Of a stretch of 64,000 nt of DNA, positions 1,409 through 60,708 are shown one piece after another. The position numbers were made by a program, and so were the translations under genes. The notes beneath the pieces are model-generated. The model did no database searches and was not told the DNA's origin. It saw nothing but the letters and a program-made list of their open reading frames with translations. The stretch comes from a virus: the IMG/VR virus record IMGVR_UViG_3300019776_000324, positions 64,001-128,000 of that record. One strand, given 5' to 3'. Position 1 is the stretch's first letter, and the number at the start of each line of letters is the position of its first letter.

Positions 1409-1783
1409 TTAAACATAGGTAGCACGACGCTGTTGTTGGTCAAAAAAGATACTCAACAACTGTGCATTTGTGCTTGGAACTACAGCTACGCCTAGTTGAA
1501 TTAATAGGCCGTTTTCTTGAGGAAATAGTTGCATGCCGCTGATATACACTCTAGGATCACCGGCGCAAACTCTTTGTATTTCTTGAGTAATAAGTGCGTG
1601 AGTGTCAGCTGTCTGGTTTTCAAACAAGAAATTCCAGATAACTGTTCCATATCCAGGGCGGCCAACTAGCTCACCTTGGCGAATGTTAAATGCGTTTAGT
1701 AGGTCAATTTTAATTAAATCAAAGTCTACACTAGTAAACTTCTTATTTTGACCAATAGTGTTAAATCCAATGAATGTAGGCAT
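1409..1783 (-). CDS. 25: Baseplate wedge protein gp25-like (GPW/gp25 family)
   Basis: A 124-aa protein (T4 gp25 is 132 aa) with the family hallmark RPGYGTVIWNFLFE near residues 42-55, followed by an alpha/beta region with ITQEIQRVCAGDPRV. gp25 is the conserved wedge core protein that binds the end of the sheath and helps trigger contraction. It sits between an unassigned structural gene and gp6, the usual wedge neighbourhood. No Shine-Dalgarno is present; a GTAAATA element ends 4 nt before the ATG, so the transcript from it may start at or near the start codon. Confidence 0.92.
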   Translation of the reverse strand: MPTFIGFNTIGQNKKFTSVDFDLIKIDLLNAFNIRQGELVGRPGYGTVIWNFLFENQTADTHALITQEIQRVCAGDPRVYISGMQLFPQENGLLIQLGVAVVPSTNAQLLSIFFDQQQRRATYV

Positions 1784-1787
1784 ACTG

Positions 1788-1794
1788 TATTTAC
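1788..1794 (-). promoter_or_regulatory. Late-promoter-like GTAAATA directly before gp25
   Basis: On the minus strand GTAAATA is followed by only 4 nt and then the gp25 ATG. In T4 late promoters transcription starts about 5-6 nt after the element, so a transcript from here would be leaderless. One of several such arrangements in the window. Confidence 0.45.
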
Positions 1795-9377: not shown

Positions 9378-9405
9378 TTGACAACTGGTTGACCTGTGTT
9401 ATAAT
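9378..9405 (+). promoter_or_regulatory. Consensus sigma70-type promoter for gp55
   Basis: TTGACA at 9378-9383 and TATAAT at 9400-9405 are both perfect consensus hexamers, separated by 16 bp. Transcription should begin near 9412, leaving a leader of about 19 nt with AGGAG at 9418-9422 before the TTG start at 9431. A host-sigma-dependent promoter fits early or middle expression of the late sigma factor. Confidence 0.85.
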
Positions 9406-9430
9406 AAGTACATTACTAGGAGATTTGCCA

Positions 9431-10342
9431 TTGGCCACAACATTTGCACCTAAAGTGGTAGTACCTAAAAACTACCTCAATAACAGAGATATCTTAAAAC
9501 AAATACATCTAAGCAAGAACACATATTGTACCTATTTAGATCCAGTTAACGATCACCAATACGATATTATTTTGCCTACTGTGGAGAAAATTAACCAGCG
9601 CACTATTGCTGAAGCTAGACGCAACAAAGCCGATAGACTCAAACGCGAAGGTGTTATTGTAGATCCTAAAAAGATTGCCAATACCGATTTAGTGTTTCGT
9701 ATTACTTGCTGGGAACACATACCAATGGCGCCTAAAAAAGTGCCAAAAACCACAGCTAAAAAGAAAAAAATTGAAGATATATTTGAGCTAGAACTTGAAG
9801 CAGAAGATCCACTAGCAGAGTTATTGGATATTCCTGTGTTGGATGAAAAGCATGTACGCTTGAACTTTCCTCCGTTTTATCACTATCGTTTAGACGAGAA
9901 TAAAGTGCCATTTTTAGTAGGCAAGAGTCACTGGAAAGGCGACTTAGAGCACGGTGAATTCAGCAAGGATCACGGTCAAACTACACGCACCTTAGCTACC
10001 ATGTACATGAAGCTGTGTGAACGCTATGCTACTCGCAGTAACTGGAGAGGATACACTTACAATGAAGAAATGCGTGGACAAGCTCTACTACAACTTAGCC
10101 AAATTGGTCTCCAGTTTGATGAATCAAAGTCTCAAAACCCATTTGCTTATTACACTGCCGCTATCACTAATAGTTTTACTCGTATTCTTAACTTAGAGAA
10201 AAAGAATCAAAACATTCGTGACGATATGCTAGAGCAAGCTGGATTGAATCCTTCATGGACTAGACAAAATGCCGGCAAGAAAGATCCTAATTTTGGATCT
10301 GTTGTTACTATCACAGCAGGCGAAGACTACGAAGCTCAATGA
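9431..10342 (+). CDS. 55: Late-transcription sigma factor gp55, N-terminally extended
   Basis: A 303-aa protein. Residues about 200-280 match the T4 gp55 core: NWRGYTYNEEMRGQALLQLS, FDESKSQNPFAYYTAAITNS, FTRILNLEKKNQ (T4: NFSGYTQSWKQEMIADGIE and so on). gp55 directs host RNA polymerase to late promoters. T4 gp55 is only 185 aa; here about 150 extra N-terminal residues precede the core, including a segment with RRNKADRLKREGV and a Lys-rich linker. I chose TTG 9431 because AGGAG lies 8 nt upstream; an in-frame TTG at 9389 sits inside the promoter. The stop overlaps the next start (ATGA). Confidence 0.85.
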   Translation: MATTFAPKVVVPKNYLNNRDILKQIHLSKNTYCTYLDPVNDHQYDIILPTVEKINQRTIAEARRNKADRLKREGVIVDPKKIANTDLVFRITCWEHIPMAPKKVPKTTAKKKKIEDIFELELEAEDPLAELLDIPVLDEKHVRLNFPPFYHYRLDENKVPFLVGKSHWKGDLEHGEFSKDHGQTTRTLATMYMKLCERYATRSNWRGYTYNEEMRGQALLQLSQIGLQFDESKSQNPFAYYTAAITNSFTRILNLEKKNQNIRDDMLEQAGLNPSWTRQNAGKKDPNFGSVVTITAGEDYEAQ

Positions 10343-11490: not shown

Positions 11491-11519
11491 TTGCATTTGC
11501 GTTAACAATCGTTTACAAT
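11491..11519 (+). promoter_or_regulatory. Sigma70-type promoter before gp47, start codon near +1
   Basis: TTGCAT (11491-11496), a 17-bp spacer and TACAAT (11514-11519). The gp47 ATG at 11528 begins 8 nt after the -10 element, and no Shine-Dalgarno lies between. The transcript would therefore be leaderless or have only one or two leading bases. Confidence 0.65.
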
Positions 11520-11527
11520 ACACAATT

Positions 11528-12544
11528 ATGACAAATCTATTCCGCAAAACGGCCGTATGTACTGATATCCATTTTGGATTGAAATCAAACAGCCTAGTAC
11601 ACAATCAAGACTGTTCGGACTTTATCGACTGGTTTATTGCCACAGCCAAAGAACAAGGCTGTGAAACTGGCATGTTCCTAGGTGATTGGCATCACCATCG
11701 TGCCAGCATTAACTTGCAAACTCTGCACTTCAGTTTAAAAAGTTTACAGAAACTAAGTGCTGCATTTGATAATTTCTATTTTATTCCAGGAAATCATGAC
11801 TTGTACTACAGAGACAAGCGTGACATCCACGGTGCAGAATGGGCACAACACTTGCCTAATATACATGTCATCAATGATTGGTTCAGTGAAGGCGGAGTAA
11901 CTATTGCCCCATGGCTGGTAGGTGACGATCATAAAAAGATACAAAAACTAAACAGTCAGTATGTGTTTGGACACTTTGAACTGCCACACTTTAAAATGAA
12001 CGCCATGGTAGAGATGCCAGATCACGGTGAGATACATGTGGATCACTTTAGTGGTGTAGGCGAAGTATATTCTGGACACTTCCATTTACGACAAAACAAA
12101 CGCAACATCAACTATATTGGCAACTGCTTTCCGCATAACTTTGCTGACGCAGGTGACAGTAGTCGCGGCATGATGGTCCTAGAGTGGGGCAAGCCAGCAG
12201 AATATCACGCATGGCCAGGACAACCCTTGTATCGTGTGCTTAAACTGAGTCAGGTGATTGACAATGCTCCAAACATGTTGGCCAAGAATATGCATGTCAG
12301 AGTAGAACTAGACATTGATATCAGTTACGAAGAAGCTAACTTTATCAAAGAAACATTTGTTAAAGACTACAACTTAAGAGAAATGGCCTTGCTACCAGTT
12401 AAGAGCACCGCAGTCGATTTGGATCTCGCTCCGGGCGAAATCAAGTTTGAAAGCGTAGATCAAATTGTTACAGACCAAATTACTAATATCGAAAGTGAGT
12501 TTTACGATCCTAAGCTACTGTTAAAAATATATCAAAATCTATAA
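11528..12544 (+). CDS. 47: Recombination endonuclease subunit gp47 (SbcD/Mre11 type)
   Basis: A 338-aa calcineurin-like phosphoesterase (T4 gp47 is 339 aa). Metal-binding motifs are in order: DIHFG (residues 13-17), GDWHHH (about 56), GNHD (about 87) and GHFHLRQ (about 182). With gp46 it forms the Mre11-Rad50-like nuclease that resects DNA ends for recombination-dependent replication and host DNA degradation. It is followed by a radical SAM gene that overlaps its stop (TAATG), separating it from gp46, whereas in T4 only small genes lie between 47 and 46. Confidence 0.93.
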   Translation: MTNLFRKTAVCTDIHFGLKSNSLVHNQDCSDFIDWFIATAKEQGCETGMFLGDWHHHRASINLQTLHFSLKSLQKLSAAFDNFYFIPGNHDLYYRDKRDIHGAEWAQHLPNIHVINDWFSEGGVTIAPWLVGDDHKKIQKLNSQYVFGHFELPHFKMNAMVEMPDHGEIHVDHFSGVGEVYSGHFHLRQNKRNINYIGNCFPHNFADAGDSSRGMMVLEWGKPAEYHAWPGQPLYRVLKLSQVIDNAPNMLAKNMHVRVELDIDISYEEANFIKETFVKDYNLREMALLPVKSTAVDLDLAPGEIKFESVDQIVTDQITNIESEFYDPKLLLKIYQNL

Positions 12545-15878: not shown

Positions 15879-16888
15879 CATTAGCAACCTGGCACTTCCA
15901 TATTGAGATATCAAGCAAGTGTACCTTGCGTTGTCCTCGGTGCGCACGACAAGAAGTGCCAGACAGTTTGATCAATACCGAATTAGATTTAGAGTTTTTC
16001 AAACGCAACTTTACTGAAAAATTTATTTTGGATAATGTTGAGAAGATCACATTCTGCGGCGATGACGGTGATCCTATCTATGCACACGATCTTATTCCTG
16101 TAATTGATTATATCAAACGCATTAAGCCTGTACAAATTGTTATTATTACCAACGGTTCACACAAAAAGCCAGAATGGTGGCGTGGACTTGGTAGTGTATT
16201 AACTTCTCAAGATACTGTACATTTTAGTATAGATGGCTGGGATAACGAATCCAACAATCTGTATAGGGTCAACAGTGATTTTAACAGCATACTCGAAGGT
16301 GTAGCCAATCTGCGTTCAACTAGTAGTTGCAGAACAGTTTGGGCTGCTATTGCATTCAAGTTTAACGAAGATCATATCACCAACATAGTATCTATGGCGC
16401 AAAGCTACGGGTTTGATGCTGTACAGTTTACAAAGAGTACTAAGTTTGGTAGTGTATATCCAAGTTATGGCAACGATGATCCGCTTGAACCTAGTAGAAA
16501 GTTTGTTAGCAGCTCGCATAGATTTGAAAGAGATGTTATACTGTTAAGCTCGCGTGGGTTACATCCATCTGTAGATGTAAAGAATATTGAACTGTATAAA
16601 TCAGTTAAAGAAGTAAATGGCGTTAAACCGCTATGTGAGATTGGAAACAAAGGACTGTATATTGATGCTCGCGGTAGATTGTTTCCGTGTTGCTGGGTAG
16701 CTAATCGTTACGCACACAATACAGAATGGCAACAGCTTGCTAATCAATTTGACCTCAATCAAAGAACATTAACAGATGTATTAGTAGATCCGTTTTGGAC
16801 AACAGAATTTAAAACATTTAAGTGGCAAGAGTGTCAAAACAAGTGTAATGCCAAGAAAGTGGACGAAAAATATGCAACTCAGTGGTGA
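15875..16888 (+). CDS. Radical SAM protein 3 with C-terminal SPASM-like cysteines
   Basis: A 337-aa protein starting at GTG (GTGA overlap with the gp46 stop). The radical SAM motif CTLRCPRC is at residues 16-23, with a GDDGDP segment near 63 in place of the usual GGEP. The C-terminal region has CEIGNKGLYIDARGRLFPCC and CQNKC, resembling a SPASM or twitch auxiliary-cluster domain. The order of domains is the reverse of radical SAM proteins 1 and 2, so it is a different subfamily. Substrate unknown. It is the last tightly coupled gene of the gp47-gp46 operon. Confidence 0.85.
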   Translation: MTLATWHFHIEISSKCTLRCPRCARQEVPDSLINTELDLEFFKRNFTEKFILDNVEKITFCGDDGDPIYAHDLIPVIDYIKRIKPVQIVIITNGSHKKPEWWRGLGSVLTSQDTVHFSIDGWDNESNNLYRVNSDFNSILEGVANLRSTSSCRTVWAAIAFKFNEDHITNIVSMAQSYGFDAVQFTKSTKFGSVYPSYGNDDPLEPSRKFVSSSHRFERDVILLSSRGLHPSVDVKNIELYKSVKEVNGVKPLCEIGNKGLYIDARGRLFPCCWVANRYAHNTEWQQLANQFDLNQRTLTDVLVDPFWTTEFKTFKWQECQNKCNAKKVDEKYATQW

Positions 16889-22197: not shown

Positions 22198-22204
22198 CTA
22201 AATA
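22198..22204 (+). promoter_or_regulatory. Late-promoter-like CTAAATA before gp20
   Basis: CTAAATA overlaps the stop of the preceding gene (TAA 22195-22197 is adjacent) and ends 7 nt before the gp20 ATG. No Shine-Dalgarno lies between, so a transcript from here would have a leader of at most about two bases. Confidence 0.5.
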
Positions 22205-22211
22205 TACAACC

Positions 22212-24041
22212 ATGGCAGATAACGATAATAACCGTAAACGCGGTTGGAAAAAGTATTTTAAAGTCGCTAATACAGGCGGACAACTAAGTCCAATTAGTGG
22301 ACAAAATCAATTTGGCTTACCAAATTACGATCGCCAACAAGGCGGTGATTTTACAGGTGGCACGCCAAACGACTTTGCGTTCCGTAACTATGCTAGCCGT
22401 TTGCCAGAAGTTTATAGCGGACATCCTAATCGTATTGAGCGTTACAACCAATATGAAAACATGGACTGCGACTCAGAAGTTAATGCTTGCTTGGATATTA
22501 TCAGCGAGTTTAGTACACAAATCAACGATGATAATCTAACACCGTTTGATATTAACTTTACTGACAAACCCACAGACCACGAAACTGAAATTATCAAAAA
22601 GCAGTTACAGCAGTGGACCAAACTAAACAAATTAGATCAGCGTATTTTTAAATTATTCCGCAATGTAATCAAGTACGGCGATCAAGTATTCCTGCGTGAT
22701 CCAGAAACATTTGAAATGTACTGGGTTGACATGGTCAAAGTTGCCCGTGTTATTGTTAACGAATCAGAAGGCAAACGCCCTGAGCAATACATTATCCGCG
22801 ACATCAATCCTAACTTCCAAAACATGAGTGTGGCTAGTAAAACTACCCAGGACTATTATGTAAGCCGTGCTACTGGAAGCGTTGGACAGAACAACTACAC
22901 AGCACCTAACGGTGGTGGCTATGGTGGTGCAGGTGGCGGAACAGGCAACAGCCGTTTCACACAGGCCATGAACGAAAGCTGTATTGATGCTCGTCATATT
23001 GTGCATTTGACACTAAACGAAGGCTTGGATTACTTCTGGCCATTTGGACAAAGTATTCTAGAAAACATTTTCAAAGTTTACAAACAAAAAGAATTGTTAG
23101 AAGATTCTGTATTGATCTATCGTGTACAACGAGCTCCAGAGCGTCGTGTGTTTAAGATTGATGTGGGCAACATGCCAAGTCATATGGCCATGCAGTTTGT
23201 TGAGCGTGTCAAAAACGAAATGCACCAACGCCGTATTCCTACTACCACAGGCGGCGGTGCCAACATGATGGATAGCAGTTATAATCCATTAAGTATTAAC
23301 GAAGATTACTTCTTTCCACAAACAGCTGAAGGCCGCGGTAGTAGCGTTGATGTGCTTAGAGGCGGTGAAAACCTAGGCGAAATTGACGATTTAAAATACT
23401 TTAATAACAAAATGGCCCGCGGTTTGCGTGTGCCAAGTAGTTACTTGCCAACAGGTCCAGACGATAGCAACCTAGCTATGAACGACGGACGAGTAGGCAC
23501 AGCATTGATCCAAGAATACCGTTTTAACCAGTACTGCGAACGCTTACAAGCGTTGATTATGCAGAAGCTAGACGATGAATTTAAGATGTTTATGCGTTGG
23601 AGAGGCTTTAATATTGACTCAGGATTGTTCAATATTAGCTTGTGTGCTCCGCAAAACTTTGCCAGCTATCGTCAAGCAGAAATGGACAAAGACCGCATTG
23701 GGTCATACATGCAATTAGAACAGTTGCCTTATATGAGTAAGCGATTCATGATGAAGCGTTACTTGGGCTTAACTGAAGAAGAGATCCTTGAGAACGAAGT
23801 TGCCTGGCGTGAAGAGCGTGAGGAACCAGAACTTGAAACTACACAAGGACAAGATTTGCGTTCAATCGGTATTACACCTGCTGGTCTTGACAGCGATATT
23901 CAAACTGGAGAAGAGCTTGCATCTGCTGAAATTATGGGAGATCAAGCAGGCATTCCTCCAATTCCTAGCGTAGCAGCTCAAGGTGCTCCGCAAGGCCAAG
24001 GCGCTCCTAGTGCAGGTGCTCCTGGTGTGCCAGGTGTATAA
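22212..24041 (+). CDS. 20: Portal vertex protein gp20
   Basis: A 609-aa portal (T4 gp20 is 524 aa). It has characteristic segments SRLPEVYSGHPNRIERYNQY, ENMDCDSEVNACLDIISEF, KYFNNKMARGLRVPSSYLP and GRVGTALIQEYRFNQYCERL. A Gly-rich insertion (YGGAGGGTG, about 235-245) and an Ala/Gly/Pro-rich C-terminal tail account for the extra length. The dodecameric portal sits at one capsid vertex, nucleates head assembly and is the DNA channel. The stop codon lies inside a TATAAATA element serving the next gene. Confidence 0.97.
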   Translation: MADNDNNRKRGWKKYFKVANTGGQLSPISGQNQFGLPNYDRQQGGDFTGGTPNDFAFRNYASRLPEVYSGHPNRIERYNQYENMDCDSEVNACLDIISEFSTQINDDNLTPFDINFTDKPTDHETEIIKKQLQQWTKLNKLDQRIFKLFRNVIKYGDQVFLRDPETFEMYWVDMVKVARVIVNESEGKRPEQYIIRDINPNFQNMSVASKTTQDYYVSRATGSVGQNNYTAPNGGGYGGAGGGTGNSRFTQAMNESCIDARHIVHLTLNEGLDYFWPFGQSILENIFKVYKQKELLEDSVLIYRVQRAPERRVFKIDVGNMPSHMAMQFVERVKNEMHQRRIPTTTGGGANMMDSSYNPLSINEDYFFPQTAEGRGSSVDVLRGGENLGEIDDLKYFNNKMARGLRVPSSYLPTGPDDSNLAMNDGRVGTALIQEYRFNQYCERLQALIMQKLDDEFKMFMRWRGFNIDSGLFNISLCAPQNFASYRQAEMDKDRIGSYMQLEQLPYMSKRFMMKRYLGLTEEEILENEVAWREEREEPELETTQGQDLRSIGITPAGLDSDIQTGEELASAEIMGDQAGIPPIPSVAAQGAPQGQGAPSAGAPGVPGV

Positions 24042-24044
24042 ATA
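24037..24044 (+). promoter_or_regulatory. Perfect T4-type late promoter TATAAATA overlapping the gp20 stop
   Basis: The exact T4 late consensus TATAAATA includes the gp20 stop codon (TAA 24039-24041). Five bases later comes ATG 24050, which is where transcription should begin, so the following gene would be read from a leaderless mRNA. Confidence 0.65.
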
Positions 24045-24049
24045 CTAGT

Positions 24050-24271
24050 ATGATCCTCAGCGAAATCTATAATCGTAGCCCTGAAGCTTATCAAGATGTA
24101 AGTCAAGATAACAGTCAGCCTACGCTTAATGACACAAGAAAAACTCGTTTAACTCTGCGTCAATTAAACAAATTGCGCCAGATGAACGATGTTCGTACCT
24201 ACGAATATAAAGAAAAACTTAAACTAGTTAAAAAGCAATACGCACCTCCTCCTGCTGCTCCAGCAATGTAA
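24050..24271 (+). CDS. Small basic head-region protein between gp20 and the scaffold genes
   Basis: A 73-aa Lys/Arg/Leu-rich protein (LTLRQLNKLRQMNDVR, then YEYKEKLKLVKKQY) ending in a Pro/Ala tail. Short basic proteins at this position are common in T4-like aquatic phages; a scaffold or core role is plausible but not shown. No Shine-Dalgarno. The stop codon region (TAA at 24269-24271) merges with the terminator that follows. Confidence 0.65.
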   Translation: MILSEIYNRSPEAYQDVSQDNSQPTLNDTRKTRLTLRQLNKLRQMNDVRTYEYKEKLKLVKKQYAPPPAAPAM

Positions 24272-28273: not shown

Positions 28274-29422
28274 TTAAATTTTATACCAGCTTAGATATTT
28301 GTGTACCTTTTCGGTTACACTTGCCCAATCGTCCATTTTGGGTTGGCGGAACAATCTAGCAGTAGTGTACCAAGGGCTTGAATCGCGATCAAGTAACCAG
28401 CGCCAATCTAATCCATATTGATTTAGCATGACCCAGACTGGACGACCTAATGCGCCAGCTAAGTGCGCTACAGCGGTATCTACACTTAAAACAACATCCA
28501 AGTGATGCAATAATCCAGCAGTGTCTGAAAAATCTTTTATACTGCCAGGATAGGCTTTTACACCTGCAGAAACTAAAGTAGCTTCCTCTTCTGCAGTACA
28601 ATCAGTTTGCAAATTAATCCACTCATAGTCAGGATTGCGTTTGATCAACTTTAACATGGTTTCAAATGGCATGGCCTTGTGCAAGTTAATCCAAGTATCT
28701 CTACGACCAGACCAACAAAATCCTACACGCAATCTTTTTTTAGGACCTAGTGTTTCTTGCCACCGTTTAATTTTTCCAGGATCGGCTTCAATGTAATATT
28801 GTACATGACTAAGGTTATCCAGTGTGCAACCAATGATTCCTGGAATACTCATAATTGGAGTCCAGTAATCAAAAGGTGGTATATTATTACCGTCAATTGA
28901 AATATGTGAAATAGCTTTCAATGATCTAAACAATGGTTCTAGACTAGGGTTAACATTTAAAACTACCCGAGCACCTCTAGAAGTAAGGTCTCCAATGAAT
29001 CGTACAAACTGTATGTTGTCGCCATGCCCTTGTTCAGCAATGACCAAGATAGTTTTATCCTTGAGATCCTCGCCGGACCAGCGCGGCTGTGAAAAATTAG
29101 GTAATGCTCCTGCTAAGTGTTCATAATTCCAGCGAGTTTCGTATTGCCGCCAGCCTAATTCATAATTTCCACTTAACAGATAAGCCACAGCAAGATTGAA
29201 GTTAGCAGTAGCATTGGTTGGGTCAAGTGTAAGAGCTCTTTGCAAAAACGGAATAGCACCTGCTGGCTCGCCGCACTCGCGCAGGACATTACCATAGTTG
29301 TTAAATGCGCCAGGATGCTGGCGGTCTTGAATCATTGCTTGTGCGTAGTAGGCTAGTGCGCCTTCGGGATTGCGATCGGCACGACATTGATTGCCGTGTG
29401 CTATTAATAATTCTGTATCCAT
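28274..29422 (-). CDS. TPR repeat-glycosyltransferase (GT9-like) fusion, accessory gene
   Basis: A 382-aa protein. Residues about 10-100 hold TPR repeats (PGAFNNYGNVLRECGEPAGA, ANFNLAVAYLLSGNYELGW). Residues about 118-370 form a glycosyltransferase-like domain (ILVIAEQGHGDNIQFVRF, VLSVDTAVAHLAGALGRPVW) of the heptosyltransferase/GT9 type. TPR-glycosyltransferase fusions occur in bacteria and large aquatic phages. Sugar transfer to virion or host surface components is inferred. It is a single gene on the opposite strand inserted after gp23. I chose ATG 29422, 5 nt past a TTAAATA element, over ATG 29428, which lies on that element. Confidence 0.82.
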   Translation of the reverse strand: MDTELLIAHGNQCRADRNPEGALAYYAQAMIQDRQHPGAFNNYGNVLRECGEPAGAIPFLQRALTLDPTNATANFNLAVAYLLSGNYELGWRQYETRWNYEHLAGALPNFSQPRWSGEDLKDKTILVIAEQGHGDNIQFVRFIGDLTSRGARVVLNVNPSLEPLFRSLKAISHISIDGNNIPPFDYWTPIMSIPGIIGCTLDNLSHVQYYIEADPGKIKRWQETLGPKKRLRVGFCWSGRRDTWINLHKAMPFETMLKLIKRNPDYEWINLQTDCTAEEEATLVSAGVKAYPGSIKDFSDTAGLLHHLDVVLSVDTAVAHLAGALGRPVWVMLNQYGLDWRWLLDRDSSPWYTTARLFRQPKMDDWASVTEKVHKYLSWYKI

Positions 29423-29427
29423 GATCA

Positions 29428-29434
29428 TATTTAA
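29428..29434 (-). promoter_or_regulatory. Late-promoter-like TTAAATA before the glycosyltransferase
   Basis: On the minus strand TTAAATA is followed by TGATC and then ATG 29422. The 5-nt gap is the distance expected between a T4-type late element and the transcription start, predicting a leaderless mRNA. It suggests the gene is expressed late with the virion proteins. Confidence 0.45.
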
Positions 29435-47265: not shown

Positions 47266-48614
47266 TATCGTCCTGGTGGTCTTGGATGAGGCGGAAGATT
47301 ACCACCTTGGTCACCGTTATCTGGTTTAATTTCTAAAATTTCACTGAGACTCTGACGACTTGGAATATTACCAACATCAGTAGTAGGCACAGTGTAAGTG
47401 TTATTTACAAAGCTGGCTCGCTGAGTCAACGCATCTGCTGCGTAGTCAAGATCAGTGCGAACATTATCGCTGATAGCTAGCCATGCTCTTCCGCTGTAAC
47501 GGAATAAACGATTAGGAAAATAGTCTAAACGCAAACAATAATCGCCTGCTACCGGAGTTGGAGGAAACTGTACACCTGGTGTAACAGGTAACCCATTGGG
47601 AGCAGTAGTTGATCCTGTTAAGTATCCGCGAACATAGCCAAATCCGTTTGGAGTAATACCTTCTCCAGTTTGGGTGCCGTCAACAGTAGGTGCCGTTTCG
47701 TCAGCAGTTAATCCAGCACCGCCTGGTTGCCCACTTGGTGTAGTTGGCAGTATGTAAAATTTAACATTATCGTAACCACTTACAGGAACATCTTGATAGG
47801 CTTGGGTTAAGATAGCATCATTAATTTGTAAGTCCTTGGGACGAGTACTTTGCTTGTCGCCAACTGTATCAGGATCTGTAATAACTTCCCAATAATCAGT
47901 ATTGGTAATTTCGGTACCAGGCGGCACAGGTTGCTTGGCTTGGTAATAAGTACCGCCGTTGTTTACAATTTCGTTAGTTGGGTAATAGTTACCCGGATCC
48001 CAGATATTTTCAGGCATGAATGGTTGATTAATAATCTGACTGTATTCCTGCGCATTAACCAAGGGCGTTGCTTTGATACGCCACAGGTGCGGCAACCAAG
48101 TAACACTGAATCCTTCTTGTGCAAAGTTAGCATCTTGAATAACATAGTAGCGTGGTAGTGCCTTGACAAGAGCAGTATCCAAGGGATTGTAATCTTTTAA
48201 GTTTGGTAGTTCAATAACATCACCGGTCATTAACTTACGACCAAAGGTGTCAATCATGTTGTTGTAGTGGAATGTAATAAACAGTGTATCGTTGTTTAAA
48301 AACAAACCAAATTGTGTTAGATCAAAGTCTACATCCTGCTGGCGATAAACACCACGCATGATAAAAATGTCTGGATCGTAAACACGATCGCGGTTTTCCA
48401 ACAATAGTAAATCTTCAATGAACAAGGGGTTGGTACTATCGTAATTAGGAATAGTAGCGTCATTGTTACCGTTGTCTGTACCTGCGCCTTGCGGACCCAA
48501 ATATTTGTGGACATAGATGTCAAGCCCGCCAACTGTGTACATTTCTGAAATTGTGCGGTCTAAAAATTGATAATCGTTGGTTCGATTTGGGCGGTATAGC
48601 GATAAGCGTGGCAT
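47265..48614 (-). CDS. 14: Neck protein gp14-like, with chitin-binding-like insert
   Basis: A 449-aa protein (T4 gp14 is 256 aa). Residues about 10-180 parallel gp14 in order: YQFLDRTISEMYTVGGLDIY, RDRVYDPDIFIMRGVYRQQD, LTQFGLFLNNDTLFITF, GRKLMTGDVIELPNLKDY. Residues about 205-250 (ENIWDPGNYYPTNEIVNNGG, TYYQAKQ, DYWEVI) look like a CBM5/12-type carbohydrate-binding module. The C-terminus has RYSGRAWLAISD, similar to the gp15-like protein. ATG 48614 lies 7 nt past a CTAAATA element and ATG 48620 only 1 nt past it, so 48614 is preferred. Confidence 0.72.
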   Translation of the reverse strand: MPRLSLYRPNRTNDYQFLDRTISEMYTVGGLDIYVHKYLGPQGAGTDNGNNDATIPNYDSTNPLFIEDLLLLENRDRVYDPDIFIMRGVYRQQDVDFDLTQFGLFLNNDTLFITFHYNNMIDTFGRKLMTGDVIELPNLKDYNPLDTALVKALPRYYVIQDANFAQEGFSVTWLPHLWRIKATPLVNAQEYSQIINQPFMPENIWDPGNYYPTNEIVNNGGTYYQAKQPVPPGTEITNTDYWEVITDPDTVGDKQSTRPKDLQINDAILTQAYQDVPVSGYDNVKFYILPTTPSGQPGGAGLTADETAPTVDGTQTGEGITPNGFGYVRGYLTGSTTAPNGLPVTPGVQFPPTPVAGDYCLRLDYFPNRLFRYSGRAWLAISDNVRTDLDYAADALTQRASFVNNTYTVPTTDVGNIPSRQSLSEILEIKPDNGDQGGNLPPHPRPPGR

Positions 48615-48621
48615 AGTCATG

Positions 48622-48628
48622 TATTTAG
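48622..48628 (-). promoter_or_regulatory. Late-promoter-like CTAAATA for the gp14-gp15-Nudix unit
   Basis: On the minus strand CTAAATA is followed by 7 nt and then ATG 48614; no Shine-Dalgarno intervenes. It lies 8 bp from the -35 element of the divergent sigma70-type promoter. Confidence 0.55.
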
Positions 48629-48636
48629 CGGTTAGA

Positions 48637-48665
48637 TTGACTATAAAATCAAAAGCTGGTATAAT
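48637..48665 (+). promoter_or_regulatory. Sigma70-type promoter, start codon at +1
   Basis: TTGACT (48637-48642), 17-bp spacer, TATAAT (48660-48665). ATG 48672 begins exactly 6 nt after the -10 element, the usual distance to the transcription start, so the mRNA is predicted to be leaderless. Confidence 0.8.
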
Positions 48666-48671
48666 TACAAA

Positions 48672-48923
48672 ATGGACGAGTTATTTCAACGCTTAGATCG
48701 TGCAGAAAAAGCTATTGCTACTGTTAAACACAAAGTAGCTCGCAGAGATCTATTAAAAATGGTAAAAACCATTGATGTTGCCATTGTGGCTGCAGATATG
48801 GAAAGTGTAGAATGCCGTAGGGTGCATAAAGAAACACCCAAGTATAGAGAGTTAGTAAAAAAAACTGAAGATCTAATAACTAATTTGGAACAACATATTA
48901 CCTTTGCCAATCTACTAGGTTGA
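48672..48923 (+). CDS. Small helical protein, unknown
   Basis: An 83-aa protein predicted to be two or three helices (FQRLDRAEKAIATVKHKVAR, LVKKTEDLITNLEQHITFA), charged and without membrane segments. It has its own strong early-type promoter. Its stop codon overlaps the -35 box of the next promoter. Small early helical proteins of this kind in T4-like phages often act on host factors, but nothing specific is visible. Confidence 0.65.
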   Translation: MDELFQRLDRAEKAIATVKHKVARRDLLKMVKTIDVAIVAADMESVECRRVHKETPKYRELVKKTEDLITNLEQHITFANLLG

Positions 48924-48947
48924 CATTACAAAAATTTAATATACAAT
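48920..48947 (+). promoter_or_regulatory. Sigma70-type promoter, start codon at +1
   Basis: A perfect TTGACA (48920-48925), 16-bp spacer, TACAAT (48942-48947). ATG 48954 begins 6 nt after the -10 element with no ribosome site between, again predicting a leaderless transcript. Confidence 0.78.
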
Positions 48948-48953
48948 AAGACT

Positions 48954-50099
48954 ATGGCTAAATCAAACGAAATTAAAAGACTGAACCCTAAGGGTGCTGA
49001 AACCAAATATGTTGGCTTTGAACCTGAGTGGAAATTCCAACCCACAGAAGAAAATCGTGTTAGCAGTCTTGCTAATGCATTTCAATGGTACAACTATCAC
49101 TATGGCAAAAAAGATGCCAAAGAAATGTTGTGCCATTATCTAGAACACAATGGCCGTAAAGTGGATGCCAAGACCATGCGTGGTATTCCAGACAGTCAAA
49201 TTCGTGTGACGCCAGCTTGGGTTTGTCGTATGACATTGATTGGACTAGTGCTCAATGAACACGAGCAGAGCATCATTGACGAACAAATTAGTGCCATGCT
49301 TAAAGTCAAGCAAGAAAAGAAAAAAGAACAGTCCGAAGTTGATGCCGACAATGCTGTGGCAAAATTAACAATTCAAGATCACCTGCGTGAAAAGATCAGT
49401 GAATGTTGTGGCGAACTAGAAGGCATGTTTGATGATTTTGTTGTAGCTGGCGCTAAAATGTCAGCAGACTTTAAGCCTATTGCACTCATGCGCGGCATGA
49501 ATATCAGTCCCAACATGATTGGCACAGTATCTAAAGTTTGGGAATTGCGCCTGGAAGAATTCAATGAAGTATTAACTGGCGAAGATGATCAACTAGTAGA
49601 AGGGTATAGCCACCTCTCTAAGAATCAATTAAAGCAGTGCGTTAAGTTTTGCGAAACAGTAATTAACGATTGCAACAGCTATGTTCAGCTCAAGAAAGTA
49701 GAGCGCAAACCTCGTGCTAAGAAAGCAGTAAGCCCAGAAAAACTCACACGCAAATTCAAGTTCTTGAAAGAGTTTGATGAACTTAAACTTAAATCCGAAC
49801 CAGTTACCAAGCTAGTTAATGCATCAGAGGCTTGGCTTTATGACACAGCCAAGCGTAAACTAATACATGTCATGGCAGATAGTCATATTGGAACATTCAC
49901 AGTCAAGGGCAGTGCTATTGTAGGATTTGATGCACAAACAACAGTACAAAAAACCCTACGCAAGCCAGCAGAATCGATTAAAGCAGTTACAGGTGGAGGC
50001 AAGCCAGCGGCTCGTAAAGCATTTGCTGAAATCAAAGCTACGGAAACCAAGTACAACGGGCGAGGCAACGAAAACTTAATCATACTATGGGCTTGGTAA
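48954..50099 (+). CDS. Early-type protein, unknown
   Basis: A 381-aa protein. It has N-terminal WYNYHYGKKDAKEMLCHYLE, a central helical region with Lys/Glu-rich stretches (LKVKQEKKKEQSEVDADN) and a C-terminal basic segment (VERKPRAKKAVSPEKLTRKF). The end (LIHVMADSHIGTFTVKGSAI) contains an isolated DSH, but the surrounding metallophosphatase motifs are absent. The basic linkers hint at nucleic-acid contact. I do not recognise the family. It is driven by its own promoter and followed 11 nt later by radical SAM 4. Confidence 0.65.
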   Translation: MAKSNEIKRLNPKGAETKYVGFEPEWKFQPTEENRVSSLANAFQWYNYHYGKKDAKEMLCHYLEHNGRKVDAKTMRGIPDSQIRVTPAWVCRMTLIGLVLNEHEQSIIDEQISAMLKVKQEKKKEQSEVDADNAVAKLTIQDHLREKISECCGELEGMFDDFVVAGAKMSADFKPIALMRGMNISPNMIGTVSKVWELRLEEFNEVLTGEDDQLVEGYSHLSKNQLKQCVKFCETVINDCNSYVQLKKVERKPRAKKAVSPEKLTRKFKFLKEFDELKLKSEPVTKLVNASEAWLYDTAKRKLIHVMADSHIGTFTVKGSAIVGFDAQTTVQKTLRKPAESIKAVTGGGKPAARKAFAEIKATETKYNGRGNENLIILWAW

Positions 50100-50110
50100 C
50101 TAAGTAGTTG

Positions 50111-50992
50111 ATGTACCAAATTCCTACCAAAGTAGATTTTTATATAACCAATGTTTGTAATCTAACCTGCCAAAATTGTAATAGATTTAATAATTTTAAT
50201 TTTAAAGGCTGGCAGGATTGGAAAGAATATGAGCCCATTTATGAACAATGGGGACAACTAGTTGGGCTCCGTGCTATTACAATCATGGGCGGAGAGCCGT
50301 TTCTTAACCCTACTCTCAAAGAATGGATCTCTGGGTTAAATCGTATATTTGGCATAGAAGTACAAGTGCTAACCAACGGCACTAGATTCCTACAAACTCC
50401 TGGAGTGTACGATAGTATGCTTTGGAAAAACCCTACCAATCAAATGCAAAATCACATAGGAGTTAGTTTACATACTCCAGAGGATTTTGAACAAATTAGA
50501 TCAGACATACACGAGTTCCTTCAAGGTACTGTAACAGAATACAGCAAGGATGAAAATCCCTGGGGAGCTGATTGGCAATTTCAAGATAGCAATGGTGTAA
50601 TGATCAATGTTTATACTGTGGATGAATTTTTTGATTCAGCAGTAACATCCAACAACGGTGTATATACCCTACACAATAACGATCCAGAACAAGCTCACAA
50701 TAATTGCGCTTTTGTAAAATGGAAAAGTTATCATTTTATTCGTGGAAAATTTTACAAGTGCGGCCCTAGTGCGTTACTACCGGAGTTTGACACCCAATAT
50801 CAACTAGATATTTCAGACGAAGATCGAAAGATACTGCACTCGTACCAGCCATTATCTGTGGACAATTTTAGCGAATACCACGAAGAATTTTTTGCTAATC
50901 TGGATAATCCTATTGCACAATGTAAGTTTTGTTCAGTAAACACAAGCAAAGCAAAAATCTATCCTATCAGGAAAGGTTCTAAATCTAACTAA
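50111..50992 (+). CDS. Radical SAM protein 4
   Basis: A 293-aa protein. The cluster motif CNLTCQNC is at residues 16-23, the same position as in radical SAM 3, followed by MGGEPF near residue 58. C-terminal cysteines (NNCAFVKWKSYHF, FYKCGP, CKFC) could bind an auxiliary cluster. I start at ATG 50111; an in-frame TTG at 50108 directly precedes it. It is probably co-transcribed with the 381-aa gene. Substrate unknown. It is the fourth radical SAM gene in the window, about 33 kb from the other three. Confidence 0.83.
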   Translation: MYQIPTKVDFYITNVCNLTCQNCNRFNNFNFKGWQDWKEYEPIYEQWGQLVGLRAITIMGGEPFLNPTLKEWISGLNRIFGIEVQVLTNGTRFLQTPGVYDSMLWKNPTNQMQNHIGVSLHTPEDFEQIRSDIHEFLQGTVTEYSKDENPWGADWQFQDSNGVMINVYTVDEFFDSAVTSNNGVYTLHNNDPEQAHNNCAFVKWKSYHFIRGKFYKCGPSALLPEFDTQYQLDISDEDRKILHSYQPLSVDNFSEYHEEFFANLDNPIAQCKFCSVNTSKAKIYPIRKGSKSN

Positions 50993-50995
50993 ATA
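50989..50995 (+). promoter_or_regulatory. Late-promoter-like CTAAATA before gp13
   Basis: CTAAATA overlaps the stop codon of radical SAM 4 (TAA 50990-50992) and lies 21 nt before the gp13-like start. AAGGA at 51005-51009 serves as ribosome site, giving gp13 late expression inside a run of early-type genes. Confidence 0.55.
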
Positions 50996-51016
50996 TTAGA
51001 TCGCAAGGAACACTAT

Positions 51017-51787
51017 ATGGGCATTGAACAACAAAACAGCTTAGACTCACTAAAACAGAATTTATTTGAATATGTTCGCTATCAACTAGGCGATCAAATC
51101 ATTGATCTTGAATTAGATGCTGAACACTTTGAAACTGCTTACCGCGGTACAATTGGGACCTATCGTCAGCGAGCACAAAACGCTTACGAAGAAAGTTATA
51201 CTTTCATGGAGTTGGTTACCAATGTTAACATCTATGAATTACCTCAAGAAGTTCAATCAGTGCGTCAAATTTTCCGTAGAACTTTTGGCGATAGCACAGG
51301 TCCATTTGCTAGTAACTTTGACCCATTCAGTCAAGCAAGTTTAAATGTCTACTTGATGAACTTTAATGTGGCAGGTGGTCTTGCTACTTACGATTTCTAT
51401 TCACAATATGTAGAGCTCGCAGGCCGTATGTTTGGCGCCTACATGAACTACACATTCAATCCTGTAACTAAAAAGCTACAACTAATCCGTGACCCAAAAG
51501 GCACTGGCGAAAATGTCCTGCTTTGGACCTACAACTTTAAACCAGAATTCAACATGCTGAGCGATCCATTGATTGCACAGTGGATTCGTAATTATATGGT
51601 TGGCAACTGCAAACTTATAATCGGTGAAGCCCGTGAAAAGTTTGGTACAATTGCTGGCCCACAAGGTGGCGGCACTCTAAACGGCACAGCAATGAAGTCT
51701 GAAGGCATGGCAATCATGCAACAGGGCATTGAAGATCTTAAGAACTATGTAGATGGTTCACAGCCGTTGACCTGGGTAATTGGTTAA
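51017..51787 (+). CDS. 13: Neck/head completion protein gp13-like
   Basis: A 256-aa protein (T4 gp13 is 309 aa) with YRQRAQNAYEESYTFMELV, YELPQEVQSVRQIFRRTFGD and FDPFSQASLNVYLMNFNV, the pattern of gp13 in aquatic T4-like phages. The C-terminal half is helical with PLIAQWIRNYMVGNCKLIIG. gp13 with gp14 closes the packaged head and joins the tail. Here it lies apart from gp14, which is on the opposite strand 2.4 kb away. Confidence 0.75.
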   Translation: MGIEQQNSLDSLKQNLFEYVRYQLGDQIIDLELDAEHFETAYRGTIGTYRQRAQNAYEESYTFMELVTNVNIYELPQEVQSVRQIFRRTFGDSTGPFASNFDPFSQASLNVYLMNFNVAGGLATYDFYSQYVELAGRMFGAYMNYTFNPVTKKLQLIRDPKGTGENVLLWTYNFKPEFNMLSDPLIAQWIRNYMVGNCKLIIGEAREKFGTIAGPQGGGTLNGTAMKSEGMAIMQQGIEDLKNYVDGSQPLTWVIG

Positions 51788-51794
51788 CGCACAC

Positions 51795-51823
51795 TAGACT
51801 TTTATCTTTTTCCATGCTATACT
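51795..51823 (+). promoter_or_regulatory. Sigma70-type promoter, start codon at +1
   Basis: TAGACT (51795-51800), 17-bp spacer, TATACT (51818-51823). ATG 51830 begins 6 nt after the -10 element, as for the promoters at 48637 and 48920; a leaderless mRNA is predicted. Confidence 0.65.
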
Positions 51824-51829
51824 TACAGC

Positions 51830-52351
51830 ATGGACTTAATGATCGATCTTGAAGGTTTGGGCACTGGCCCTGATACAACTATTCTAACCATTGCCGCACA
51901 GGCATTTGATCCATTTGGTGAACTAGATTTCAAGCAACAGTATTATGCTAGAGTCACTTTAGAAAGCCAAGAAAATCGTAGTATTCAACAAGGCACCATT
52001 GACTGGTGGGCTACTCAACCTGCTGCTGCTAGAGACGAAGCATTTAACGAAGAAGGCCGCATACCGTTGGATCAAGCCCTAGACGAACTAGGCAAGTTGA
52101 TCTGGCACAGCAAACGCATCTGGGCACAAGGTCCGACCTACGACATGAACATATTAGAGCATGCATATAAGAGTTACGGAAAACCTATTCCTTGGCAATT
52201 TTATGCTGTTCGTGATAGTCGTACCGTGTTTAGCTTGTGGCCCGGCTTGCCAAAACCCCCTACAAGTCACCATGCGTTAGAAGACTGTCGTAGACAGATT
52301 GGCCTGTTGCAAACAACTTTAAAACATTTCAACATCAGGGAATTAGGGTGA
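51830..52351 (+). CDS. dexA: DexA-like 3'-5' exonuclease
   Basis: A 173-aa DEDDh-type exonuclease. The first motif is DLEGLG (D6, E8), the second a DMN in WAQGPTYDMNILEHAY (about 103), the third HHALEDC (about 145-151). T4 DexA is 227 aa. The family (also called Rv2179c-like) degrades single-stranded nucleic acid ends. It is first in a three-gene unit with the SGNH-like gene (GTGA overlap) and the dNMP kinase (ATGA overlap). Confidence 0.87.
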   Translation: MDLMIDLEGLGTGPDTTILTIAAQAFDPFGELDFKQQYYARVTLESQENRSIQQGTIDWWATQPAAARDEAFNEEGRIPLDQALDELGKLIWHSKRIWAQGPTYDMNILEHAYKSYGKPIPWQFYAVRDSRTVFSLWPGLPKPPTSHHALEDCRRQIGLLQTTLKHFNIRELG

Positions 52352-53094: not shown

Positions 53095-53756
53095 TCATTG
53101 GAATTTGTGGATTAATCGGCAGCGGCAAAGACACTATAGCAGATTACTTACAAAATATTCACCAATTTCGAAGAGAAAGTTTTGCGCATACTCTTAAAGA
53201 TGCAGTAGCTCACATATTTGGTTGGGACCGCGAACTGATAGAAGGCCGCACTAGAGAAAGCAGAGAGTGGCGAGAACAAGTTGATCCATGGTGGGCAGAA
53301 CGCTTGGGCATGCCCGATTTAACTCCCAGATATGTGTTACAAGTATGGGGCACAGAAGTTGCTCGCCGAAGTTTTCACGATGATATTTGGATTGCCAGTT
53401 TAGAAAACAAACTGCGCAAAACTACAGATGATGTTGTTATTAGCGATTGTCGTTTTCCTAACGAAATCCGTGCTATTAAACAAGCCGGCGGCATTGTTAT
53501 CCGTGTTGTGCGTGGCCCAGAGCCTGTGTGGTATGAGCTTGCTGAAACTGTAAACCGTGGCCCTGGAAAAAATATTGAATGGCGCTTGAGTAAAAATCAG
53601 CTAGAAACATATGGTATTCATGCTAGCGAAACTGGCTGGATTGGCACTGAGTTTGATGCAGTTATTGACAACAATGCTGATGGATTAGATAACCTGTACC
53701 GCCAAGTTAAAGATCTGGTTCAAGGTCTCCAGGACGCCAAAGCTGATCACTCTTAG
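53091..53756 (+). CDS. 1: Deoxynucleoside monophosphate kinase (gp1-like)
   Basis: A 221-aa kinase (T4 gp1 is 241 aa). The P-loop is GLIGSGKDT at residues 7-15. YVLQVWGTEVARRSFHDDIW and VISDCRFPNEIRAIKQAGG correspond to the substrate-binding and Walker B-like regions of the family. It phosphorylates dNMPs for phage DNA synthesis. Its last 50 nt overlap the end of the convergent HNH-like gene. Confidence 0.92.
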   Translation: MIIGICGLIGSGKDTIADYLQNIHQFRRESFAHTLKDAVAHIFGWDRELIEGRTRESREWREQVDPWWAERLGMPDLTPRYVLQVWGTEVARRSFHDDIWIASLENKLRKTTDDVVISDCRFPNEIRAIKQAGGIVIRVVRGPEPVWYELAETVNRGPGKNIEWRLSKNQLETYGIHASETGWIGTEFDAVIDNNADGLDNLYRQVKDLVQGLQDAKADHS

Positions 53757-54051
53757 CAATTTCCACTACACAGTTTTGACAAACTGTTTTTAAGTTTCTA
53801 AGCCCAGTGTTGTGTAAATTACCATCAACATGATACACTAGTAATTGTGCTGAAAATTTAGCTCTAAACCCACATCGATCACATGTGGGTTTTTTCTTAT
53901 ATCCAGAGGTTTTCCATCTAGGCTCAGCTGGCTTGATACGGCGCCCACGACGAATACAATATTCACACAATCTGCGATATTGAATTGAGTCTTCTCGGTG
54001 GTATGCTACTGCTCTTGGCCGTTGATTACAGGCTAAACATATAGGTCTCAT
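53707..54051 (-). CDS. HNH-like zinc protein
   Basis: A 114-aa basic protein with four CxxC pairs (CLAC 5-8, CEYC about 29-32, CDRC about 57-60, CQNC about 91-94). A late YHVDGNLHNTGLRNLKTVC carries the H-D-G and N of an HNH core. It is therefore an HNH endonuclease or a related zinc-binding protein. The C-terminus overlaps the convergent dNMP kinase by 50 nt. A CTAAATA element ends 5 nt before the ATG, with no ribosome site, predicting a leaderless late mRNA. Confidence 0.72.
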   Translation of the reverse strand: MRPICLACNQRPRAVAYHREDSIQYRRLCEYCIRRGRRIKPAEPRWKTSGYKKKPTCDRCGFRAKFSAQLLVYHVDGNLHNTGLRNLKTVCQNCVVEIAKSDQLWRPGDLEPDL

Positions 54052-54056
54052 GCAAA

Positions 54057-54063
54057 TATTTAG
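54057..54063 (-). promoter_or_regulatory. Late-promoter-like CTAAATA before the HNH-like gene
   Basis: On the minus strand CTAAATA, then TTTGC, then ATG 54051. The 5-nt gap equals the T4 late element-to-start distance. Confidence 0.5.
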
Positions 54064-60193: not shown

Positions 60194-60200
60194 CTAAATA
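60194..60200 (+). promoter_or_regulatory. Late-promoter-like CTAAATA directly before gp16
   Basis: CTAAATA ends 4 nt before ATG 60205 and there is no Shine-Dalgarno in the gap, so a transcript initiated here would be leaderless. Confidence 0.45.
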
Positions 60201-60204
60201 TGGT

Positions 60205-60708
60205 ATGACAAAAAAATTAGAAGAAATTTTTGGTTTTAACGAGTTAGAAACAGAAGACACTGTGTCCGATGATGCTCCTAAAACCACGGAAGAAACTAAA
60301 ACAGCCATAGTAGAAATTGATGCTACTATTGATAAAATTGATGCAGCTCTACCAGCTATCCGTGACTTAGATGCTAGTGATAACGAGCTAGACGAAATAG
60401 CCGAAATGGCCAAAGAAAGCTACCAAAATTTATCAGATCTAGGATTCAATGTTGATAGTCGTTATGCTAGCGAGTTATTTGCTGTAGCAAGCACCATGCT
60501 TGGACATGCACTAACAGCCAAGACTACTAAACTAAACAAAAAATTAAAAATGCTTGATCTACAAATGAAAAAACTTAAATTGGATCAAGATGCGGCAAAA
60601 AATGCTCCAGAAGAGCCTCCTGTAGGCGAAGGACGAGTATTAAACACTATGAATCGCAATGAATTACTAGAACGCTTAATTGGGTCAAGAGACCAAAAAA
60701 ACAATTAA
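60205..60708 (+). CDS. 16: Small terminase subunit gp16
   Basis: A 167-aa protein (T4 gp16 is 164 aa). Acidic N-terminal region, then a helical core with FAVASTMLGHALTAKTTKLN and KKLKMLDLQMKKLKLD, the recognised T4-like small terminase segment. It regulates the large terminase gp17 during packaging. gp17 is not in the window and may lie beyond the right edge. The gene is followed by putative internal head proteins rather than gp17. Confidence 0.88.
   Translation: MTKKLEEIFGFNELETEDTVSDDAPKTTEETKTAIVEIDATIDKIDAALPAIRDLDASDNELDEIAEMAKESYQNLSDLGFNVDSRYASELFAVASTMLGHALTAKTTKLNKKLKMLDLQMKKLKLDQDAAKNAPEEPPVGEGRVLNTMNRNELLERLIGSRDQKNN

Follow-up and report, generated by a model that had tools for sequence, protein, structure and literature searches.

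Genes and promoter-like elements in the window

We analysed a 64,000-nt stretch of viral DNA (the window), which corresponds to positions 64001-128000 of the 344,244-base IMG/VR virus record IMGVR_UViG_3300019776_000324 (G000). Genes for gp55, a gp47-like nuclease, and the portal, major capsid and sheath proteins were identified in the record, which represents a T4-like jumbo phage. The subject of this study is a set of genes in which a promoter box lies a few nucleotides upstream of the start codon (Table 1), a layout that would leave the mRNA with little or no 5' leader.

A preceding reading of the window (the sequence-only reading) had pointed out three genes, those for an 83-aa protein, a 381-aa protein (ORF381) and a DexA-like exonuclease, in which a -35 hexamer is followed by a -10 hexamer after 16-17 bp and by ATG after exactly 6 further nt, and a gp47-like nuclease gene with the same layout at 8 nt. 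All these coordinates and spacings were confirmed. At the four sites the -10 hexamer sits at the position of a Shine-Dalgarno (SD) sequence and, as had been claimed, no SD motif is present upstream; in the case of ORF381, the -35 hexamer includes the TGA stop codon of the gene upstream. The gp55 gene had been set against these genes as one having a leader with AGGAG. That contrast holds, as a strong promoter is followed there by AGGAG, with a -10-to-start distance of 19 nt to the probable TTG start. The 57-nt divergent intergenic region at 48614-48672 carries two opposed promoters of the layout in question, a late-type TAAATA box for a virion protein on the minus strand and the sigma70-type promoter of the 83-aa gene on the plus strand.

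Table 1. Promoter boxes and associated starts, numbered from the first letter of the window; distances in nt separate the box from the start codon.
Feature	Span	Strand	Details
Sigma70-type promoter, gp47-like nuclease (phrog_100, 11528-12544)	11491..11530	+	-35 TTGCAT 11491-11496, 17 bp, -10 TACAAT 11514-11519, 8 nt, ATG 11528
Sigma70-type promoter, 83-aa gene (48672-48923)	48637..48674	+	-35 TTGACT 48637-48642, 17 bp, -10 TATAAT 48660-48665, 6 nt, ATG 48672
Sigma70-type promoter, ORF381 (phrog_11903, 48954-50099)	48920..48956	+	-35 TTGACA 48920-48925, 16 bp, -10 TACAAT 48942-48947, 6 nt, ATG 48954
Sigma70-type promoter, DexA-like exonuclease (phrog_255, 51830-52351)	51795..51832	+	-35 TAGACT 51795-51800, 17 bp, -10 TATACT 51818-51823, 6 nt, ATG 51830
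Late-type box TAAATA, gp25-like baseplate wedge protein (1409-1783)	1781..1793	-	box 1788-1793, 4 nt, ATG
Late-type box TAAATA, portal protein (phrog_213, 22212-24041)	22199..22214	+	box 22199-22204, 7 nt, ATG
Late-type box TAAATA, 73-aa gene (24050-24271)	24039..24052	+	box 24039-24044 overlapping portal stop codon, 5 nt, ATG
Late-type box TAAATA, 382-aa gene	29420..29433	-	box 29428-29433, 5 nt, ATG 29422; layout in 3/3 homologs
Late-type box TAAATA, virion structural protein (phrog_11591)	48612..48627	-	box 48622-48627, 7 nt, ATG 48614
Late-type box TAAATA, small HNH-endonuclease-like gene (53707-54051)	54049..54062	-	box 54057-54062, 5 nt, ATG; layout in 63/72 homologs
Late-type box TAAATA, 167-aa gene (60205-60708)	60195..60207	+	box 60195-60200, 4 nt, ATG; layout in 19/20 homologs
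Late sigma factor gp55 homolog (phrog_12791, phrog_234)	9389..10342	+	leadered, with AGGAG behind the promoter; start probably at TTG 9425

Spacing of sigma70-type promoters across the genome

Genes were called on the full record without SD or promoter information, which gave 386 starts, and sigma70-type promoters were scored with E. coli-like matrices. For the strong promoters (score >=9), the -10-to-ATG distance was 6 nt in eight cases, 5 nt in two and 7 nt in one; the sole other prominent peak, at 28-30 nt, comprises a leadered class with a strong SD and a conserved leader. When promoters were scored first and gene calls ignored (80 sites per 344 kb at the strictest threshold), an ATG stood at exactly 6 nt in 11 of the 80 promoters, against a mean of ~2 at other distances, and eight of those 11 ATGs open an open reading frame (ORF) of at least 50 codons. 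Counting every ATG at the head of a reading frame of 50 or 60 codons, which sidesteps gene-caller bias, yielded 13 ATG-ORFs at 5-7 nt in the 344-kb record at equal promoter density, versus 2.7 expected (Poisson P = 6e-6). The 5-7 nt peak was also found in the three relatives compared as members of the same clade, G001 (P = 2e-7), G002 (P = 2e-6) and G006 (P = 0.01).

These are the whole-genome statistics that the sequence-only reading had proposed as a check. Its argument that so regular a spacing is not a matter of chance stands with respect to the excess, and chance is ruled out by the promoter-first counts together with the control genomes described below. The spacing is not identical from gene to gene, as it varies from 5 to 8 nt, with a mode of 6 nt here and 6-7 nt in the relatives.

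High-scoring matches at 5-8 nt that fell inside other genes were dropped (e.g., one within groEL and a GTG within a long reverse gene), and the TTG at L014:16836 was rejected as a leaderless start, being probably leadered with an internal ATG. There are 16 candidates of the sigma70 class, and for 13 of them one or more relatives share the layout. They include genes for a primase, a UvsW-like helicase, the gp47-like nuclease, the DexA-like exonuclease, a UvdE endonuclease and a phosphoribosyltransferase, as well as several unknowns. Those of known function serve DNA metabolism. The sequence-only reading had taken these mRNAs to be early; judged by such functions, their timing could be early or middle, and a similar layout recurs at the late-type TAAATA boxes described below.

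A second class with the late-type box TAAATA

TAAATA is found 4-7 nt before the ATG of 31 ORFs in G000, where 5.6 are expected (P = 9e-14), and an excess was detected in G001, G002 and G006 as well. Among the near boxes of G000, distances of 4, 5 and 7 nt occur 10 times each and 6 nt once; the pattern is similar in G002 and weaker in G001 and G006, and the rarity of 6 nt may reflect start-site choice. In an unbiased test of hexamers enriched 4-8 nt before ATG, TAAATA led the non-SD hexamers in all four clade members. The 10-11 highest-ranking hexamers of G000, G001 and G002 were all SD-like apart from TAAATA; in G006 it ranked second and two overlapping shifts of it also appeared.

The boxes agree with T4-type late promoters in that the TAAATA core precedes portal, gp25-like and virion genes and that a gp55 homolog, expected to be the factor reading them, is encoded in the same genome. 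They do not agree with a T4-like leadered mRNA with an SD, as ~31 ORFs have the box at 4-7 nt and no SD; a second, leadered group has it at 17-26 nt.

The distances are kept in homologs. The phrog_11591 virion structural gene has TAAATA at exactly 7 nt in all 44 distinct homolog upstreams, the gp25-like gene has it at 4 nt (46) or 5 nt (11) in a set of 58, and the 73-aa gene at 24050-24271 retains the layout in 57 of 58 homologs, eight of them with an SD motif. Portal homologs have the box at 6-7 nt in 33 of 49 cases and most of the others at 17-26 nt; an SD was detected in 17 of 18 portal homologs lacking the layout. Two late genes carry dual in-frame ATGs (ctaaatacATGACTATG) 1 and 7 nt after the box, one in the window (48620/48614, minus strand) and one at L006 6255/6261 (plus strand). 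In the phrog_11591 homologs the first of these ATGs is often missing and the second is kept, and we therefore moved the start of that gene from 48620 to 48614, which is probably the genuine one.

Shine-Dalgarno motifs and start context

An SD of at least 4 nt is present in one of 11 genes of G000 with a distance of 5-8 nt, versus 35 of 45 with a distance of 15-60 nt. Across the homolog upstreams with the leaderless layout, both promoter classes included, an SD motif was found in 20 of 760, compared with 182 of 184 homologs of leadered control genes. Of 27 candidate genes, 24 have a pyrimidine immediately upstream of the ATG, against a background of 52% (P = 6e-5). A pyrimidine at -1 is the usual initiator context of a purine start site.

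Conservation of the sigma70-type layout

In dozens to ~100 contigs, homologs hold the -10-to-ATG distance at 5-8 nt despite changed spacers and flanks. For the 83-aa gene, 83 distinct upstreams were compared; 79 show the layout, and four of those 79 contain an SD motif. ORF381 has a distance of 6 or 7 nt in 43 of 46 close homologs; in a wider set, the layout was found in 59 of 104, and 36 of the 45 others have an SD. The spacer between its -35 and -10 hexamers is sometimes 16 and sometimes 17 bp, and thus the conserved quantity is the -10-to-ATG distance. One ORF381 homolog (L064) has its ATG 27 nt from the -10 hexamer, yet an in-frame ATG stands at exactly 6 nt. For the exonuclease, 76 of 92 homolog upstreams carry the layout and no SD was found among these 76. 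The distance in exonuclease homologs is nearly always 5-6 nt (entries at 8-9 nt correspond to 5-6 nt after a 3-nt offset), and 54 of 61 primase homologs have 5-6 nt, some starting with GTG. For gp47, the distance is 5 nt in one homolog, 6 nt in 12, 7 nt in 22 and 8 nt in nine, making 44 of 63. Strict IUPAC searches for a single exact layout gave almost no matches because the spacers vary. Further leaderless families were seen in relatives, outside the designed sampling.

Comparator phages and the putative host

The sigma70 peak at 5-7 nt was not found in six other phages (T4, Cr30, Atu_ph07, PA5oct, Vibrio 2.275.O and phiM12), which represent a handful of genomes, some sampled in part. The near TAAATA peak was absent in Atu_ph07, PA5oct, Vibrio 2.275.O, phiM12 and Cr30; in T4, TAAATA peaks ~28 nt before ATG, and the hexamers that prevail in front of start codons are those of the SD. 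TAAATA was not among the top 14 hexamers before ATG in T4, Atu_ph07, PA5oct, Vibrio 2.275.O or phiM12. These six phages rule out the layout as a general T4-like trait.

The phage groEL has its best match (80%) in Polynucleobacter, followed by other Burkholderiales, which suggests a betaproteobacterial (Burkholderiales) host. No peak was observed in 400 kb each of one Polynucleobacter and one Methylophilus genome, and we accordingly reject the layout as a copy of a host habit, with the proviso that the host was guessed from GroEL alone.

The phage also carries a gene for the ribosomal protein bS21 (record ~183631-183789; L008 17611-17832), which was found in three of the four clade members inspected. 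It lies between an apparent ClpX gene end and groEL (L008:18582), with groEL on its downstream side. Redirected initiation has been proposed for phage bS21 (PMC7162821, PMC9723584). A search for phage-encoded IF3 found none.

Proposed leaderless transcription and its alternatives

The layout is more frequent than chance allows, is conserved among relatives, is missing from the comparator phages and almost excludes SD motifs. To account for these findings, we propose that two promoter classes in this T4-like jumbo phage clade yield leaderless or near-leaderless mRNAs translated by 5'-AUG recognition. We regard this as very probable on the strength of the sequence comparisons. Transcription would start at, or at most ~3 nt from, the start codon in both classes. 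The host RNA polymerase with a sigma70-type factor would read TTGACA-N16/18-TATAAT with the -10 hexamer 5-8 nt before the ATG, and the polymerase with the phage gp55-type late factor would read TAAATA at 4-7 nt. The resulting mRNAs, beginning with 5'-AUG, would be translated without SD pairing, through 70S or IF2-dependent initiation. Several findings favour the claim of the sequence-only reading that leaderless translation is a regular strategy: the spacing peaks across the genome and is conserved in relatives, SD motifs are almost missing, a pyrimidine usually occupies -1, and SD-bearing internal starts are scarce. As to its possible benefit, such genes should yield little protein from read-through transcripts and be translated efficiently only when transcribed from their own promoters, so that temporal gene classes would stay separate despite the compactness of the genome; we infer this insulation because the box occupies the SD position and 36 of the 48 candidate genes lie behind a gene on the same strand.

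Several observations weigh against this interpretation. Spacings of 4-8 nt are compatible with leaders of 0-3 nt and do not distinguish these from none. Six primase homologs and several of uvsW and gp47 have neither the layout nor an SD, and the portal, ORF381 and gp47 families include leadered SD forms in other members, indicating that the layout is not obligatory. The G006 peak, taken alone, is weak, and the homolog upstreams, drawn from viral contigs, were deduplicated by exact sequence, such that their counts do not equal independent events.

If the promoters were real and the true starts lay further downstream, the ATG near +1 would be misannotated and the mRNAs would have ordinary leaders. 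Such misannotation has been reported for Deinococcus (PMC12340547), and in the two dual-ATG genes the first ATG appears not to be the start. We nevertheless consider this very unlikely, as (i) an in-frame alternative start with an SD within 40 codons was found in only one of 27 genes tested, (ii) with most homologs the alignment begins at residue 1 or 2, and (iii) the box-to-ATG distance is conserved in relatives, whereas a non-functional ATG would drift.

We give equally little credence to compact packing alone, in which promoters are merely pressed against starts, translation proceeds by read-through or re-initiation and the spacing is meaningless. Most window cases do have short gaps of 8-57 nt, and the number of candidates that follow a same-strand gene is in keeping with it. 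Nevertheless, packing predicts a spread of distances, whereas the observed distances concentrate at 5-7 or 4-7 nt, with almost none at 8-16 nt. No such peak is seen in T4 or in other compact phages of the T4 type, the SD is lost exactly where the box is close, and 12 of the 48 candidates are divergently arranged and carry the layout too.

That the near TAAATA is an artefact of preceding TAA stop codons, leaving the sigma70 class alone as real, is suggested by cases in which its TAA is the upstream stop (24039-24041), and is hardly credible, as the hexamer test rules it out (TAAATA, 78 versus 12.2 expected; TAANNN hexamers other than TAAATA and the SD-like TAAGG/TAAAGG, little or no excess, with TAAGTA and TAATAA weak), several cases are divergent with no stop upstream, the distance is kept in the phrog_11591 and gp25-like gene homologs, and near TAAATA was not seen in comparator phages.

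Starting from leaderless transcription in both classes, it is possible to conceive a complete two-class programme, in which the box at the SD site ties early/middle and late translation to the respective promoters, read-through mRNAs stay untranslated, and host ribosomes are shifted to 5'-AUG initiation, perhaps by the phage bS21. We hold this extended scheme to be rather unlikely.

Relation to known systems

Leaderless mRNAs are usually regarded as rare oddities in Gram-negative bacteria. In phage lambda, transcription from the cI promoter starts at the AUG itself. Lambda cI is named as a leaderless mRNA, and 70S ribosomes bind leaderless mRNAs at the 5' AUG (PMC9031893); cI is one gene, whereas the candidates here are spread over the genome and are conserved as a class throughout a clade.

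A -10-like TANNNT signal located ~12 bp ahead of the start codon has been described for leaderless genes (Zheng et al. 2011, PMC3160421; Deinococcus-Thermus, PMC12340547), and -10 boxes adjoining ORFs were experimentally confirmed to drive leaderless expression in Deinococcus (PMC12340547). Those genes resemble the phage genes in that the start codon follows the -10 box after a few nt and no SD is present, but they are host genes, mainly of Actinobacteria and Deinococcota, and often lack a -35 box, whereas the phage clade has good -35 boxes and a second, late-sigma class.

According to a review (PMC3594737) of the work of Sevostyanova et al. (2007), most middle and late mRNAs of the Thermus phage phiYS40 are leaderless. 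In this lytic myovirus a whole temporal mRNA class is thus reported without leaders, which is the point of resemblance to the candidate leaderless mRNAs studied here. Leaderless genes are themselves abundant in the phiYS40 host group (PMC3160421), unlike in the likely betaproteobacterial host (from GroEL), where such genes are uncommon. As far as that account of phiYS40 goes, the phage here also differs in being T4-like, in encoding a gp55 homolog and in involving both sigma70-type and late promoters. With T4 late promoters (TATAAATA, gp55-dependent) it shares the TAAATA core and gp55, but many of its boxes lie 4-7 nt before ATG with no SD, far closer than the T4 peak. No prior report of a leaderless layout in T4-like phages was found in the open-access literature, an absence that is not proof.

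If the proposal is true, a widespread freshwater phage clade with leaderless genes for replication and virion proteins would offer a natural system in which to study the selection of 5'-AUG messages by ribosomes. It would also account for the misplacement of starts by SD-based gene callers in such genomes (as at 48620). The conserved box-to-ATG spacing could also help to annotate starts in uncultured phages. Finally, it would suggest that temporal gene classes can be insulated without RNA hairpins; in T4, hairpins that hide ribosome-binding sites serve a similar end for some genes (PMC2988022).

Other features of the record

A family of leadered strong promoters, TTGACC-N17-TATAAT, occurs at L002 3723-15584, L008 8110-8505, L010 3286-16176 and L011 3079-13936. 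Its members share a conserved leader with TATAGT shortly downstream, usually AAGGAG, and ATG at 28-31 nt; the genes behind them, mostly small, are possibly immediate-early. A cluster of 28 tRNA genes was found at L016 4354-15019, with an additional tRNA-Pro call at L002:521, and ARAGORN made a tmRNA-like call at L015 17249-17631 with an unusual 28-residue tag, which may be false. In the window, a radical-SAM-domain gene (50108-50992) lies in the structural/replication region, and the N-terminus of the gene at 15875-16888 may be similar to it.

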